A DNA stretch of 43,625 nt from Nitrospinota bacterium (GTDB lineage Bacteria > Nitrospinota > Nitrospinia > Nitrospinales > VA-1). A program made the translations under genes and the position numbers. Where the stretch lies: the NCBI GenBank assembly GCA_027619975.1, contig JAQCGX010000029.1, positions 1-43,625 on the forward strand, in the 5' to 3' direction. The notes below the pieces were generated by a model that saw nothing but the letters and a program-made list of their open reading frames with translations, was not told where the DNA came from and searched no databases. Shown here piece by piece: positions 1-15,030 of this stretch (the stretch's first letter is position 1; each line of letters opens with the position of its first letter).

Positions 1-948
1 AGATGTCCCGAGGATGTTGTCCTCGTCCTGGAAGTACAACGCGAAGTCGCGGTAGTTCTCAAGCTTGGCATTCTCAGGATACGACTTGTCGATGATCACG
101 TCCGCTTTCCAGGAGTTGCCCTGGGAGATGTCTTTCCCAGTCTCTGGATCCCGATACACCGATCCACGCGGACCGATGATGATGCCACCGAACAAACCAT
201 CCCGAACGTTGGTCGTCAAATTACCGAAGTCCCACAACAAGGCGCCATTGATGTTGTAATCAGTATGCGCATAGAAAGTGTAAACTTTGGACTTGCCGGG
301 TGCCAACGTCTGATCTCCAGGATTGTTCCCGACATTGATGCCCTGAGAATCCAGAGGATCGAACGCGAGGTTATTCGCGTGCAGAGAAGCGTTCCCTTCT
401 TTCAAACGGTTGGTCAGTTTGACCTTGATGCAGTCTCCGATGTTCGCACGAAGCGTCAACGGATGCGGCATCACGCCATCGTCCGACGCCTTGCTGACTT
501 CACCCTCAAGAGCGAAAATCTTGGCTTCGGCGTTGGCAAGGATGAGTTTTCGTTCGAAATCAACTTCAATCTCATCCTCGGTGTTGGGATTGAACTTCAG
601 CGCTTTGTTGATTGCTACCACACTGAAATTCTTAACCGGTGCACCTGTTGGGCAAAGAGTTTTCGCTGATTTTGCGATGTGCTCATTGCCCGGCAAGGTT
701 TGCAGGTCTTTTTGTACTTCATCCAAAACTCTCAAGATAGACCAACTACCTTCAGACAAATGAGAGGTTCGACCATCGTAAACCAGATAGTCTCCTGCCA
801 TCTGCTGATAACCTCCCGCAGTGGTCGCCAGATCATAACGCTCGGCGATCCCTACATGAAGGGCGTTAGTAACCCTGGAATCCCTGTCATAACGCTCCGG
901 GCGGTAACCGTGACCGGAAACCACGAAGGTATGGGTTTCATACATCAT
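1..948 (-). pseudogene. 5'-truncated second copy of the giant multicopper oxidase, running off the left edge
   Basis: The minus frame is open from an ATG at 948-946 to the window edge (316 codons, no stop) and aligns with residues 1149-1467 of the complete oxidase at 2020-6942. By hand alignment the first ~98 residues differ at about 20 positions and lack 3 residues. The last ~218 residues, from the CPTGAPVK motif on, differ at only about 10. Similarity ends around 955-972, just before an in-frame TAA at 973-975, and no Shine-Dalgarno is seen before the ATG. The piece covers only cupredoxin domains that have lost their copper ligands, so alone it could not be an oxidase. It is best read as the remnant of a tandem duplication whose first ~1148 codons are gone. 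It could instead be expressed as a short paralogue; its 3' end is outside the window. Confidence 0.7.
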
Positions 949-986
949 GCCGCTAATAATAAGGCCTGTACATTAATTTTTACGCC

Positions 987-2019: not shown

Positions 2020-5000
2020 TCAGCGATTCATCGACAATCGGTCATCCTCAGGATTAGCAGCCGATTTCTCGCCCTTCGGGGTTGCATCTCCCAAAGGCAG
2101 GATCGACCTTTCACCCTGCGGCAGAACCTTGAAGTAACCCCATTGACCGGCCTGCTGGTACGGGGTCCTGGCGTTCAACCAGAGGTAGGTTCCGGGGTTT
2201 GAGTAAGTACCGCCCGCCCTTGTGAAGGCCTGGATGTACTCACCACCACCGAACTGCTCAACGTCGATCATATCAGAATTCTCCTGATTCAGATGACGCC
2301 TCCATTGATGTCCGTCGACATTGAACATCTGGTTCTGCTCGTTATGCGCTCCGAAGACATTGATCATAACCCGGTCTCCTGCATGAGCTTTCAATACAGG
2401 AGTTGCAGGGTCGCTGTCTGCGGCGACGCAAGGTGTGAAGATATTACCCAGCTCACAACCTTCGTCTTCACGATAGCTCCAGGGTTCCAGACGATAGTTC
2501 ACGCCCGTCAGACCCGCTACGTTCTGCAGGTAAGGCATGAAAGATGTCCCGAGGATGTTGTCCTCGTCCTGGAAGTACAACGCGAAGTCGCGGTAGTTCT
2601 CAAGCTTGGCGTTCTCAGGATACGACTTGTCGATAATCACGTCCGCTTTCCAGGAGTTGCCAAGAGAAATGTCTTTCCCCGTCTCCGGATCACGATACAC
2701 CGATCCTTTAGGACCGATGATGATTCCACCGTACAAACCATCCCGAACGTTGGTCGTCAAGTTACCAAAGTCCCACAGCAAGGCGCCATTGATATTGTAA
2801 TCTTTGGCCGCATAGAAAGTGTAAACTTTGGACTGGCCGGGTGCCACCGTCTGATCGCCAGGGTTGTTCCCGACATTGATCCCTTGAGAATCCAGAGGAT
2901 CGAACGCGATGTTATTCGCGTGCAGCGAAGCGTTGCCTGCTTTCAAACGGTTGGTCAGCTTGACCTTGATGCACTCTCCGATATTCGCACGAAGCGTCAA
3001 CGGATGCGGCATCACGCCATCATCCGACGCCTTGCTGACTTCCCCCTCAAGAGCGAAAATCTTGGCTTCGGCGTTGGCAAGGATGAGTTTGCGTTCGAAA
3101 TCAACTTCAATCTCATCCTCGGTGTTGGGATTGAACTTCAGTGCTTTGTTGATCGCGACCACACTGAAATTCTTAACCGGAGCGCCTGTTGGGCAAAGAG
3201 TCGTTCTAATTTTCTTCTTAAACTCTTTTTCCTCGTTGCCCGGAAGTTCTTTCAAGTCCTTCTGTAGCTTGTCATGAACCCGAATGATGCCCCAGGTTCC
3301 TTCAGACAGATGAGAGGTTCTACCGTCGTAGTAGAGGTAATCCCCCGCCATTCCCTGATAGCCACCAGCGGTGGTTGCCAGATCATAACGTTCCGCGATA
3401 CCAATGTGAATCGTATTGGTAACTCTGGAATCCTTGTCGTAACGCTCCGGGCGGTAACCGTGACCGGAAACAACAAAGGTATGGGTTTCATTCTGCATGC
3501 CATGGAGAAGACGAAACATGATGCTGTCACCTACGTAAGCGCGAAGCAACGGAGTCGAAGGATCTCCATGTACGGTACTACTGAACAGCCTGGAGACATC
3601 TTTGTTCGACTTGAGCCGCGCGGACAATGAAGTCGCGCGGAAGTTGAACCCGCCGCCTGTCGTATGCGTTCCGCCGTTCAAGTGAGGAAAGGCCACATCC
3701 AGCATCGTGTCAGGCATCTGAAAAGAGATGGACTGACCTGCCGCAATGGCATTTTCTCTGGACAATCCCGGAGGATTGCCATCGGTCACCAATTGAGCGG
3801 TGTGCGGAACCGTGTCATGCAACTGTGCTACCAACTCACGGAAACTACCGTTTCGCCCGTAAGCAAAAGGCTCGGTTCCATGAATGTCAGCCACCGGGCC
3901 ACTGCGGATCGGTTTCCCCGTTTTAGGATCATGATACGTCGATCCCCACGGTTCTACGATCGTGGACCCGATACCACCGTGTGGCCAGGTCGTAGCACCA
4001 AACGCATGGTCATGCCAGAAAACTAATCCGACATCGGCATCCACCCACCAGCGGTAACGAACATACTCGGTGGTAATGATCTGACCCGCCGCATGGGCAT
4101 GAGTCATCGGAGCGGTAAACGTGATTGTATATTTACCGTCCTTGGCCGGGTTCTTGTTAGGATCAGGATTGATCGACTTGATCCAGCGGGCGTCCTTCTT
4201 GTTGGGAACTTCGATACCAACAATGATATCTGCGCCCACATGGTAAGTGGTCGCCCCTTTTGCCATCTCGATCTCGATCGTGTCCGATCCGGGTTTTACA
4301 GCTTTCAGCAGTTTCGCGTTCATCGGAACGGGCATACCTACATGATGACCGTCCTTCATTTTCTTCGTGAACTGCTTGTAGGATCTCATCGACTGATCGT
4401 ATGAGAATCCAGTGATAACACCATCCGACGCCTGATTGTCGAACTGGAAGAAATGCGGATGAATGTTGACTTTAGACATTTGGAAATTGGTAAAGTCATC
4501 GTCATCCCATTCGCTGGACAAAAGAACGTCCACACAATCGTATACGTTTGCGCGGATAACCAGCGGATAAGCAATGGCCGGATCTTTTCTTACCGCTTCG
4601 ATTTCCTCATCGATCACGTAAATCAAACCGTACTTATCTATCATCGGCGGTGTTTTGCCAATGGCCGGAGAAAGTTGAACCGGTGTGTTGATAAAATGCA
4701 GGTTGTACTGCTTTCTACCAGCGCCACCAGGACACAAGCTCCAACGTCCCTGCTCACCCGGTTTCGCGGGTGCACTGCTCTCAACGTTGGGACCACTGCT
4801 ACCGTTACCCGACTCGGAAGCCAGGTTCTCGTTGTGAGTCGCTAAATGAAACGGCTCCAACCACGGAGCACCACCATGATGACGGGCGAAAGGAACTCGC
4901 TTGCCAAAATGCGGTGTCATATGCGGCCATGCCAGTTTACCGGTCAACGGCGAAAACTGAATCGGATGCCGTTTGCCGGGATGCGGCGATTTGTACTTCG

Positions 5001-6942
5001 GCCACTTGGTTGTGGGCTCACGCTCGGACATGACGGTTGAACTTTTCCAGCCATAATCCCACACCGACCCGTCGTAGGCCTTGATCTGCGCCACTTCATC
5101 ATCGGTATGACCCGGTTGACCCTGCGGCGGAAGCATGTATTTAACCCAGTCCTTGACATTAACAACAGGAACTTCACTGGTCCAGTCGCTACTTCCTTTG
5201 TCAACAACGTTAAACTTTTTCCCAAACCAGTCCATTGTTTTGCCGACCAGTTTGTCCGAGCTGACGCCATGCGGAATGCGGCCCGAACGGTCGGGAAGCT
5301 CTTTCAAAGGACGCATGACATCGGTACTGCCAAACGGATAGTTCCCGTCCTGCAATACGTTGTACACACGCCAGTATCCCCACATGCCGGCAACGTAATG
5401 ATGCGCCACGTGGCAATGAAACAGGAAGTCACCAGCCAGACGCTGACACAGACCGGAACCGCACTCGGTTTCCAGATCCACGGCTTCAGATGGACCGATA
5501 ACTTTAACGTCCACGCGATCAGATGTAGTGCGAACCACCGGATATTTCACCGGGCCGTTCCACGCTGCTGTGGTCAGATTCTCAAGATCGATTTGCCGTT
5601 TGGGAGAACGGGTCCAGCGAATGGTTCCGCCATGTGGATGATGCGAATGAAACACCTCGCCGCCGCCGTGAATCAAACGAAACTTGACGGGATCTCCCAG
5701 ATAAGAACGAGGGATCGTCGTTGGCGGATCACCGAACGTATAGGAACTGTACGCCAGCGACTCGTCTTCAAAGTGAAACTTTTTTTCCTGAACTGCCAGG
5801 TTGTTGATGCCAAAAGGCTCACTGCGATAATTCAAAGCCCTGGCAGAAGGACGATAGGCATCGGTCTGCGGATCGCGCTGAGGAATCATCTCCCCGTGGC
5901 GATTGAGCGGACGAAACGACTCGTCACCAACTTCGTGGTAGAACAACGCAAACTCACGAAAGTCTCTGGCGTCATTGTTAGCAATCATCGCCATCCAGCC
6001 GCTTTCCAGCGGTTCACCCGTCCACGGGTCCAGATAGGTGGAACCTACAGGCTCAACAACAAGCGTACCGATCAATCCTAATGAGGACGGATCGCGCCCT
6101 GCATGGCTCTGAATCAAATGAGCGCCTTCCTGCTCGTCGATCGGAATGTACCATTCAAAATCCTGAGTTCCTTCAGGTTTGATGATCGCCCCAGCAGACG
6201 CAGCACTGGCCGGAAGACCGGAAGAACTGATGATCATAGCGGAACCGTTTACCTGGAACCCTACATCCTCGTCTTCAACCGCGTTTGTTACTTTGACTCG
6301 CAAACAATCGCCTTGATTAGCTCGAATCAACAAAGGTTGAATGGCATCACCCTGCAAGCCATTGGTAACCATGCCCGGATCGAGTTCATCTTCTCTGGCC
6401 TTGGCGTTTGCTTCTTCTTCCGTACGGACCTTTTCAATGTTCTTGGTCAACACAAACATGTAACCAGGGTAGTAATCACCCCACTGGTTCAGTGTGACCT
6501 CAACGTTGATCGCCGAGATATCCAGGGCTTTGACCGGAGCGCCGCTCGGGCAATGAGCCCCCTTGAAAACCTTATCCGTGACTTCGGACGGTCCCAAAAG
6601 ATAGCTCTGTCCCAATTGGTGCGCCGCCCAGGAGTCATGGAAACCGCCGCCTGATGACGCCGGCGCCGCATGTTCCTTCAACTTGTCCTGGAGCTGGTCC
6701 ATGAGATTCATGAAGGTCTTGTCCAGTTTTTGCTGACTACCCTCCATGCCGCCCATCATGTCTTCATAGTCGAGCTGGGTTTCCAGCTTTTCCAGCCACG
6801 CGGGCCGGTCTACAGCATGATTTTCATGCTCTGCATGTTTTTTGCCCGGCTCGGCACTTGCAGATCCAACCCATCCCAGGGTAAGAACAGCAATCGCAAG
6901 CACGGCAAAATACTTCCATCCCTTTTTGACGCGAAAGTGCAT
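2020..6942 (-). CDS. Giant secreted multicopper oxidase with six predicted cupredoxin domains, MnxG-like
   Basis: This is a 1640-residue exported protein. The ATG has GGAGG seven bases upstream, and residues 1-30 are a signal peptide ending SASA. Three modules begin with a related CPxGAxxK motif (residues ~131, ~738, ~1250) and end with WGYxRV/WGIIRV/WGYFKV (~522, ~1217, ~1601), suggesting three two-domain units. The copper ligands sit in the first and second modules: HSHHPHG (432-438), HCHVAHHYVAGM (509-520, a complete type 1 site with Cys510, His515, Met520), HPHFFQ (828-833) and FWHDHAFG (975-982). Together these give the eight histidines of a trinuclear centre. The equivalent HCH positions in modules 2 and 3 read YDG and NAR, so those modules are probably structural. 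Size and layout resemble MnxG-type manganese oxidases, but the substrate cannot be read from sequence; nitrite, metals or phenolics are all possible. A partial second copy lies at 1-948. Confidence 0.85.
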   Translation of the reverse strand: MHFRVKKGWKYFAVLAIAVLTLGWVGSASAEPGKKHAEHENHAVDRPAWLEKLETQLDYEDMMGGMEGSQQKLDKTFMNLMDQLQDKLKEHAAPASSGGGFHDSWAAHQLGQSYLLGPSEVTDKVFKGAHCPSGAPVKALDISAINVEVTLNQWGDYYPGYMFVLTKNIEKVRTEEEANAKAREDELDPGMVTNGLQGDAIQPLLIRANQGDCLRVKVTNAVEDEDVGFQVNGSAMIISSSGLPASAASAGAIIKPEGTQDFEWYIPIDEQEGAHLIQSHAGRDPSSLGLIGTLVVEPVGSTYLDPWTGEPLESGWMAMIANNDARDFREFALFYHEVGDESFRPLNRHGEMIPQRDPQTDAYRPSARALNYRSEPFGINNLAVQEKKFHFEDESLAYSSYTFGDPPTTIPRSYLGDPVKFRLIHGGGEVFHSHHPHGGTIRWTRSPKRQIDLENLTTAAWNGPVKYPVVRTTSDRVDVKVIGPSEAVDLETECGSGLCQRLAGDFLFHCHVAHHYVAGMWGYWRVYNVLQDGNYPFGSTDVMRPLKELPDRSGRIPHGVSSDKLVGKTMDWFGKKFNVVDKGSSDWTSEVPVVNVKDWVKYMLPPQGQPGHTDDEVAQIKAYDGSVWDYGWKSSTVMSEREPTTKWPKYKSPHPGKRHPIQFSPLTGKLAWPHMTPHFGKRVPFARHHGGAPWLEPFHLATHNENLASESGNGSSGPNVESSAPAKPGEQGRWSLCPGGAGRKQYNLHFINTPVQLSPAIGKTPPMIDKYGLIYVIDEEIEAVRKDPAIAYPLVIRANVYDCVDVLLSSEWDDDDFTNFQMSKVNIHPHFFQFDNQASDGVITGFSYDQSMRSYKQFTKKMKDGHHVGMPVPMNAKLLKAVKPGSDTIEIEMAKGATTYHVGADIIVGIEVPNKKDARWIKSINPDPNKNPAKDGKYTITFTAPMTHAHAAGQIITTEYVRYRWWVDADVGLVFWHDHAFGATTWPHGGIGSTIVEPWGSTYHDPKTGKPIRSGPVADIHGTEPFAYGRNGSFRELVAQLHDTVPHTAQLVTDGNPPGLSRENAIAAGQSISFQMPDTMLDVAFPHLNGGTHTTGGGFNFRATSLSARLKSNKDVSRLFSSTVHGDPSTPLLRAYVGDSIMFRLLHGMQNETHTFVVSGHGYRPERYDKDSRVTNTIHIGIAERYDLATTAGGYQGMAGDYLYYDGRTSHLSEGTWGIIRVHDKLQKDLKELPGNEEKEFKKKIRTTLCPTGAPVKNFSVVAINKALKFNPNTEDEIEVDFERKLILANAEAKIFALEGEVSKASDDGVMPHPLTLRANIGECIKVKLTNRLKAGNASLHANNIAFDPLDSQGINVGNNPGDQTVAPGQSKVYTFYAAKDYNINGALLWDFGNLTTNVRDGLYGGIIIGPKGSVYRDPETGKDISLGNSWKADVIIDKSYPENAKLENYRDFALYFQDEDNILGTSFMPYLQNVAGLTGVNYRLEPWSYREDEGCELGNIFTPCVAADSDPATPVLKAHAGDRVMINVFGAHNEQNQMFNVDGHQWRRHLNQENSDMIDVEQFGGGEYIQAFTRAGGTYSNPGTYLWLNARTPYQQAGQWGYFKVLPQGERSILPLGDATPKGEKSAANPEDDRLSMNR

Positions 6943-13551: not shown

Positions 13552-15030
13552 TTGAATTTAATAAATGAATTAGACTTCACCAATACCTTCGTCAAAATGG
13601 GACCGGAGCTTTACCAGCTGAAGTCCCCGGACCCGGTCTCGGAACCTTATCTGGTCGATTTCAACCCGCAAGGGGCTGAACTCATCGGCCTGGACCCTGC
13701 GGAAGCAGAACGCCCGGAATTTGTCGAGTTCTGCGCTGGCAACAAACTTCCCGCCGGTGCGCAACCGCTGGCCATGGCTTATTCAGGCCATCAGTTCGGT
13801 TCTTACAACCCGCGGCTGGGCGATGGCAGGGGACTCCTGTTGGGAGAAGTGACCAACGGCAACGGGCAGAAATGGGACATCCATTTGAAGGGAGCCGGCC
13901 CCACCCGATTCGCACGCGGGTTTGACGGACGCGCCACCCTGCGGGCTACCATCCGCGAGTATCTGGCCGGGGAAGCCCTGCACGGACTGAATATTCCAAC
14001 CACCCGTTCCCTGGCCATCATCGGCATACGCGAACTCATTTACCGGCAAACGCCGGAATTGGCCGCAATACTGGTGCGCATCAGCGATTCACATATTCGC
14101 TTCGGAAGTTTTGAGTTGTTCCATTACACCAACAATCCGGCAAAAGTCACCGAGCTTGCCGATTATGTCATCCACAATCATCACCCGGACATCGAGCACG
14201 AGGCGGATAAATATCAACTGCTTTTCAGGCGGGTGATGACGGCCACCGCAAGTATGATTGCCAAATGGCAGGCGGCGGGGTTCGTCCACGGCGTGATGAA
14301 CACCGACAACATGTGCATCACCGGCGTCACCTTTGATTACGGCCCCTACGGGTTCATCGACCATTTCAACCCCAATTACACTCCCAATACGTCCGACCAC
14401 AGTGGGCGCTACTCCCTGGGAAAGCAGGCAGAAATCGGCTACTGGAATTTGAGCAAATGGGGGGAAACCCTCTGCAATCTGGTCGCCCCCGAAGATATTA
14501 TGGAGGAATTGTCGCAATACCAAACCACGTACAACAATTTCTACCGCGAACTCATGGGGCAAAAACTGGGGCTGGCCATTCTCGATGAGGAGTTCACCAC
14601 CCTGATCGGAAGTCTGTTTCAACTGCTCTACAAAAACCCGGTGGATTACACTAATTTTTTTCGCGCCTTATCGGACTATCCTGAAAGTAACGGGCTGATC
14701 CATGCCTTCAACACCCCCAAGGAAATTGAAGACTGGCTGGACCGCTATCGCAAGTTGATCGAGCGGGAAGATGCGGACTTCGAAGATCGCAAGGCAACGA
14801 TGGACAGCGTGAACCCTAAATTTATTCTGCGGCAATACCTGTTGCAACGGGCAATCGACAAGGCGTTGAAGGAGTCGGATTTTTCTGAAATCCAACGCTT
14901 GCGCGTACTATTAGAGGATCCGTTCAAAGACCGACCGGAGATTTTTAAGCAATATGATATCGACCCTGAATTTTATGCCGCCGACACCCCGGACTCGCAA
15001 CTGGGCATTCAACTCAGTTGTTCGGCTTGA
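13552..15030 (+). CDS. selO: SelO-family protein adenylyltransferase (YdiU)
   Basis: A 492-residue pseudokinase-fold enzyme that transfers AMP from ATP to protein Ser/Thr/Tyr hydroxyls. The start is a TTG at 13552; the preceding in-frame codon is TAA, and family similarity begins within seven residues, so little can be missing. Motifs include YSGHQFG (77-83), LGDGRG (89-94), HLKGAG with the lysine at 113, HGVMNTDNM with Asp252 and Asn253, and FDYGPYGF with metal-binding Asp262. The C-terminus reads LSCSA, keeping the cysteine that is selenocysteine in many eukaryotic SelO proteins. Family members help cells during oxidative stress. The small gene 57 bases downstream may share its transcript. 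Confidence 0.92.
   Translation: MNLINELDFTNTFVKMGPELYQLKSPDPVSEPYLVDFNPQGAELIGLDPAEAERPEFVEFCAGNKLPAGAQPLAMAYSGHQFGSYNPRLGDGRGLLLGEVTNGNGQKWDIHLKGAGPTRFARGFDGRATLRATIREYLAGEALHGLNIPTTRSLAIIGIRELIYRQTPELAAILVRISDSHIRFGSFELFHYTNNPAKVTELADYVIHNHHPDIEHEADKYQLLFRRVMTATASMIAKWQAAGFVHGVMNTDNMCITGVTFDYGPYGFIDHFNPNYTPNTSDHSGRYSLGKQAEIGYWNLSKWGETLCNLVAPEDIMEELSQYQTTYNNFYRELMGQKLGLAILDEEFTTLIGSLFQLLYKNPVDYTNFFRALSDYPESNGLIHAFNTPKEIEDWLDRYRKLIEREDADFEDRKATMDSVNPKFILRQYLLQRAIDKALKESDFSEIQRLRVLLEDPFKDRPEIFKQYDIDPEFYAADTPDSQLGIQLSCSA

Follow-up and report, generated by a model that had tools for sequence, protein, structure and literature searches.

A six-domain multicopper oxidase with an MnxG/Fox1-like copper-site arrangement in Nitrospinota

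The oxidase gene and its surroundings

The window, by which we mean the whole stretch of 43,625 nucleotides analysed here (Nitrospinota bacterium, contig JAQCGX010000029.1 of assembly GCA_027619975.1), carries near one end a gene for a very large multicopper oxidase, a cupredoxin gene directly downstream of it, and part of a second oxidase gene:

2020..6942, minus strand: six-domain multicopper oxidase with an MnxG/Fox1-like copper-site arrangement, 1640 aa
1045..1863, minus strand: cupredoxin-like protein, 272 aa, directly downstream of the oxidase
1..960, minus strand: 5'-truncated tandem oxidase copy, equivalent to about residues 1145-1467 and 89% identical, running off the contig

The reading frame of the oxidase is intact over its 1640 residues. 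It begins with a hydrophobic, signal-like segment that ends in SASA-E, which would place the protein outside the cytoplasm. The 272-residue neighbour shows the type 1 (T1) cupredoxin pattern, with H156, C204, H207 and M210 invariant in all 53 of 53 homologues, and its C-terminus is a carboxypeptidase-regulatory-like domain. A gene of this kind directly follows an oxidase copy at about 35 distinct loci in two phyla; beside some other oxidase copies, such as those at L034, L069 and L088, it was not found. The adjacent cupredoxin is a likely redox partner of the oxidase.

The truncated oxidase copy starts about 90 bp past the cupredoxin gene and lacks all of the copper ligands; a deletion and a misassembly at the contig end are both possible origins. 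In relatives (L023, L039 and L060), a full oxidase copy is found there instead, some 1.5-2 kb further on. At the end of contig C45 of genome G000 (L003/L098) stand the last 23 codons of another oxidase gene (14337-14405), and this contig probably abuts the window contig. Encoded at positions 9146-14142 of C45 (L098) are two further cupredoxins and two triheme proteins, one a cytochrome c and the other equipped with an ethylbenzene-dehydrogenase domain. At L028, L036, L038, L043, L044 and L066, cupredoxins and a triheme protein about 640 aa long form similar sets within a few kb of the oxidase. The C45 set also resembles the NXR-associated cluster described in the Nitrospina gracilis genome paper (PMC3578206). 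No NXR was recognised within 10 kb of the oxidase in the loci examined, and matches to the nitrite oxidoreductase model TIGR03478, when set against oxidase presence, were partial and mostly below cut-off, many draft genomes giving none. Other neighbours in the window include genes for a DegP-type protease, a PAPS reductase and CbiQ-like proteins.

Copper ligands and domain architecture

Putative copper ligands of the oxidase are contained in the following motifs:

5632..5649, minus strand: HSHHPH (432-437), with T1 His432 and trinuclear His435 and His437
5383..5418, minus strand: HCHVAHHYVAGM (509-520), with trinuclear His509 and His511 and T1 Cys510, His515 and Met520
4453..4461, minus strand: HPH (828-830), putative trinuclear ligands
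4006..4014, minus strand: HDH (977-979), putative trinuclear ligands

Following the standard multicopper oxidase pattern, we take His432, Cys510, His515 and Met520 to be the type 1 site, and the histidines at 435, 437, 509, 511, 828, 830, 977 and 979 to form the trinuclear site. An earlier note on this DNA had located the motifs at 432-520 and 828-979, exactly where they were found, and had described a giant oxidase with a single T1 site and a trinuclear site spread across its first two modules, a description that the ligand positions support. When full-length homologues from Nitrospinota and Nitrospirota loci were aligned, 51 distinct sequences in all, each of the 12 putative ligands proved invariant. 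The same 12 are kept in an MnxG-like protein of Priestia megaterium and in Streptomyces and haloarchaeal (Halalkalicoccus) proteins, plasmid-borne and 28-31% identical. Because the ligands are invariant both in the 51 homologues and in three distant ones from other phyla, the placement of the motifs is not a matter of chance.

To define the domains, the family alignment was split into six stretches and their profiles were compared pairwise. The segments of the oxidase are as follows:

6031..6570, minus strand: Domain 1 (D1), A-type cupredoxin, aa 125-304, with a vestigial trinuclear half (QSH, 278-280)
5287..6030, minus strand: Domain 2 (D2), B-type cupredoxin, aa 305-552, carrying all of the type 1 site and one trinuclear half
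4756..5286, minus strand: inter-module linker, aa 553-729, about 177 aa, in which His678 and His689 are invariant
3910..4755, minus strand: Domain 3 (D3), A-type cupredoxin, aa 730-1011, with the other trinuclear half, enlarged internally by about 100 residues (about 852-955)
3223..3909, minus strand: Domain 4 (D4), B-type, aa 1012-1240, T1 site lost (Cys replaced by Asp1206, Met by Thr1216), His1154 and His1211 kept
2671..3216, minus strand: Domain 5 (D5), A-type, aa 1243-1424, without a complete copper half-site, H1341 a vestige
2053..2670, minus strand: Domain 6 (D6), B-type, aa 1425-1630, T1 site lost, the Cys replaced by Asn1590

The odd-numbered domains match one another (D1-D3, E 4e-14; D1-D5, 2e-26; D3-D5, 5e-17), as do the even-numbered ones (D2-D4, E 1e-14; D4-D6, 3e-20; D2-D6, 2e-6), and no odd-even pair gives a meaningful profile match, none exceeding 2% probability. 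A conserved Cys pair in the same context (131/213, 737/803 and 1250/1324) is common to the odd domains. As judged from these sequence relationships, the oxidase is built of three tandem A-B cupredoxin pairs, and the count of six domains expected in the earlier note is confirmed by the profile comparison and the domain alignments.

Only D2, which has the highest conservation of any domain (140 of 248 positions invariant), possesses a complete T1 site (H432/C510/H515/M520). By position in the sequence, the trinuclear histidines are split between D2 (435, 437, 509 and 511) and D3 (828, 830, 977 and 979). The loss of the type 1 Cys from the second and third modules, as the note had it, is seen in Asp1206 of D4 and Asn1590 of D6, and its copper-free C-terminal half corresponds to D4-D6, where vestiges are present and no complete site is. 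Two large family-specific insertions, the linker (4756-5286, minus strand) and residues from about 852 to 955, flank the D2/D3 site. They carry invariant His678, His689, His901, His950, Met852 and Met874, are unmatched in MnxG, and could possibly serve as substrate or copper-delivery elements.

Among solved structures, MnxG 9bxa comes closest and is alone in matching strongly (E 5.6e-91 when the oxidase sequence is used by itself, 9.7e-114 with a D1-D4 profile); Foldseek lists it as the Mnx H340A complex. Like the oxidase, this protein of Bacillus sp. PL-12 has six domains, with T1 in D2 and trinuclear histidines that align one-for-one in D2/D3, the HCH motif corresponding as well; its residue 340, Ala in the H340A mutant, aligns with T1 His515. 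The two nevertheless differ in length (about 1227 aa in MnxG, 1640 aa in the oxidase) and in the stretch between D2 and D3 (about 80 residues against a linker of about 177 aa), and MnxG lacks the large D3 insertion, where the oxidase has about 100 residues. MnxG is also complexed with MnxE/MnxF, whereas no such genes were recognised beside the oxidase among ORFs of at least 90 aa in the tiled loci, which were surveyed without a dedicated model. Identity as an MnxG orthologue was rejected on the equivalog model NF041487 (NCBIfam), to which the oxidase scores 123.2 bits against a curated cut-off of 3100 bits. Since this cut-off is missed and no MnxE/MnxF-like genes were seen, the function of MnxG is not simply transferable.

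An AlphaFold model of D1-D4 was poor (pLDDT 58, pTM 0.46, with the D2 ligand regions below 50), so that the copper geometry rests on homology; from the homology to MnxG, the eight histidines of D2/D3 would meet around one site. The model of D3-D6 was better (pLDDT 71), its extent being such that it cannot show the D2/D3 site. Foldseek placed MnxG at the top for both models, followed by ceruloplasmin and coagulation factors, a result which for the poor D1-D4 model counts as family support only, sequence alone already giving MnxG.

Order of the copper sites

As the earlier note observed, and as the positions of the T1 and trinuclear motifs bear out, the linear order of the sites is the reverse of that in laccase. 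The note accounted for this order by circular permutation, that is, a rearranged gene in which the T1-bearing C-terminal part now comes first. Such an origin we regard as very improbable. The domains run A-B-A-B-A-B with a vestigial A domain in front, the identical order recurs in the bacterial family and in algal Fox proteins, and the leftover ligands in D1, D4 and D5 fit sites that were lost in place. A circularly permuted laccase was rejected as a candidate because D1 matches A-type D3 and D5 and never B-type D2, D4 or D6; as D1 resembles the other A-type domains only, the chain starts with an A-type domain and stands in the usual register.

Three A-B pairs closed into a ring offer three places for a trinuclear site: D2/D3, D4/D5 and D6/D1. 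If the D2/D3 interface is the one kept, the chain must run from the B-type half-site to the A-type one, and the order reversed with respect to laccase is accordingly read here, from the domain sequences, as the outcome of which interface was retained and not of permutation. Placement of the trinuclear histidines at D2/D3 has been described for all bacterial six-domain multicopper oxidases analysed, as well as for oxidases of Chlamydomonas and Dunaliella, the bacterial proteins having mononuclear sites confined to domain 2; the hypothetical ancestor had three of each copper site, the others being later lost (Vasin, Klotchenko, Puchkova 2013, PMC3600357). The D2/D3 order is therefore a published and normal trait of the MnxG family and is not unusual, and a headline of permutation adds little to what is already in print on copper-site order.

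By its three A-B pairs, D2/D3 site and T1 site in D2 only, the oxidase groups with the MnxG-like bacterial six-domain set of Vasin et al., which includes G. sulfurreducens GSU1252 (1652 aa) and Leptothrix multicopper oxidases (PMC3600357). Ceruloplasmin and hephaestin share the six-domain ring of three A-B pairs but have the trinuclear site at D1/D6 and T1 sites in D2, D4 and D6 (PMC3600357), unlike the D2/D3 site and single T1 domain of the oxidase. A ceruloplasmin-type D1/D6 site was also considered and rejected, since His280 is the only ligand remnant of D1 as far as aligned, and D6 keeps no ligand position when aligned to D2, D2-D6 being the weakest alignment. Chlamydomonas Fox1 has the D2/D3 trinuclear site in common with the oxidase but is a eukaryotic ferroxidase with further T1 domains (PMC3600357), a likeness drawn by description only. 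OmpB of Geobacter and MofA of Leptothrix, likewise compared by description, are large secreted bacterial multicopper oxidases clustered with cytochrome c; their mofB and SCO1-type partners were not seen beside the oxidase.

Taken together, the protein is very probably an extracytoplasmic six-domain oxidase of the MnxG/algal Fox1 type, which has lost its other interfaces in place, holds its site at D2/D3 only and reduces O2 by the standard mechanism. Going by what is known of multicopper oxidases as a family, single electrons would enter at the D2 type 1 copper (His432, Cys510, His515 and Met520). From there they would travel via Cys510 to its neighbours His509 and His511, and at the D2/D3 trinuclear centre O2 would be reduced to water by four of them. 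A structural role is probable for D1 and D4-D6. Mn(II) or another metal ion might supply the electrons, as might the T1 cupredoxin encoded directly downstream, which in these nitrite oxidizers adjoins c-type cytochromes and NXR-gamma-like proteins.

Distribution and possible role in nitrite oxidizers

The nearest named loci come from metagenome-derived genomes of Nitrospinaceae or Nitrospinota (90% and 87%), followed by Nitrospina (about 80%) and then by Nitrospira and other Nitrospirota (51-60%). Within the Nitrospinota, the oxidase occurs in 54 of 77 genomes and in 28 of the 31 of high quality, and the carriers, bar one partial match, all fall in the four families of the order to which the window belongs. 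Five contigs bear discordant taxon labels (L027, L053, L058, L068 and L082, labelled Poseidoniales, Acidobacteriota, Verrucomicrobiales, Opitutales and Nitrosomonas), and their oxidases are of Nitrospinota or Nitrospirota type (80-86% or about 54-55% identity); the labels are probably binning errors.

Several genomes contain two or three tandem oxidase copies, and the ligands are kept in every full-length copy aligned. In the tandem copies of L023/L032 and L060, DNA identity is 87-92% over D5-D6 versus 75-76% over D1, while in those of L039 the raised similarity is shown by D6 and not by D5. The D5-D6 similarity of tandem copies suggests gene conversion at the 3' end. Draft contigs often break in the D5-D6 region of the oxidase.

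A putative periplasmic multicopper oxidase, conserved in Nitrospina and Nitrospira and similar to the manganese oxidase MnxG of SG-1, was reported with the N. gracilis genome, where it clusters with NXR-related electron carriers, including cytochromes and cupredoxins, and was tentatively tied to Mn(III)-based defence against reactive oxygen species (Lücker et al. 2013, PMC3578206). The oxidase studied here is presumed orthologous to that of N. gracilis and Ca. Nitrospira defluvii, a correspondence drawn from phylum and description (PMC3578206) and not from comparison with a named sequence. In contrast to the N. gracilis description, the gene in the window sits at a contig end beside a truncated second copy.

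Three readings of the substrate, which may overlap, were weighed. That the protein is a Mn(II) oxidase like MnxG, producing Mn(III)/Mn(IV), perhaps against reactive oxygen as proposed for N. gracilis, is a tentative possibility. MnxG is the nearest solved relative, and the authors of the N. gracilis paper put forward Mn(III)-based protection with reference to the SG-1 similarity (PMC3578206); on the other hand, the score lies far under the MnxG equivalog cut-off, no MnxE/F-like partner was recognised beside the oxidase (tiled loci, at least 90 aa), and the large linker and D3 insertions have no match in MnxG. In the literature consulted, no data on Mn oxidation by this oxidase were found.

A soluble O2 reductase or electron sink, with no metal substrate and fed by the co-encoded cupredoxin and the cytochromes of nitrite oxidation, is a rather doubtful reading. 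It draws on the conserved set of oxidase, T1 cupredoxin, triheme cytochrome, triheme NxrC-like protein and further cupredoxins, and on the placement of the oxidase in the NXR gene region by Lücker et al. (PMC3578206). That the genes cluster does not, however, prove any transfer of electrons between their products, no NXR was recognised within 10 kb in the examined loci, and such a sink would waste energy unless it were regulatory or protective.

Many bacterial multicopper oxidases are cuprous oxidases, which speaks for a cuprous or ferrous oxidase acting in metal detoxification or uptake. The ferrous variant has a parallel in algal Fox1, a ferroxidase with equal site placement (PMC3600357). 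Beside the oxidase in the window, however, neither Cop/Cus genes nor genes for iron uptake were recognised, and this third reading seems unlikely.

The interest of the oxidase centres on its role in nitrite oxidizers and not on the order of its copper sites. It is present in nearly every well-sequenced genome of the window's order and in many Nitrospirota, tandem sets of two or three copies being frequent, and its gene often has as neighbours those of a conserved T1 cupredoxin and of the cytochromes from the region for electron transfer in nitrite oxidation. In nitrite oxidizers of the two phyla, the oxidase, cupredoxin and cytochromes/NxrC-like proteins might even constitute a periplasmic branch devoted to O2 reduction, one that would drain or sense the electrons of nitrite oxidation and oxidize no metal, a proposal that we consider speculative and improbable as it stands. 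At stake is either the production of Mn(III) by major marine nitrite oxidizers or an additional route of oxygen reduction in them.
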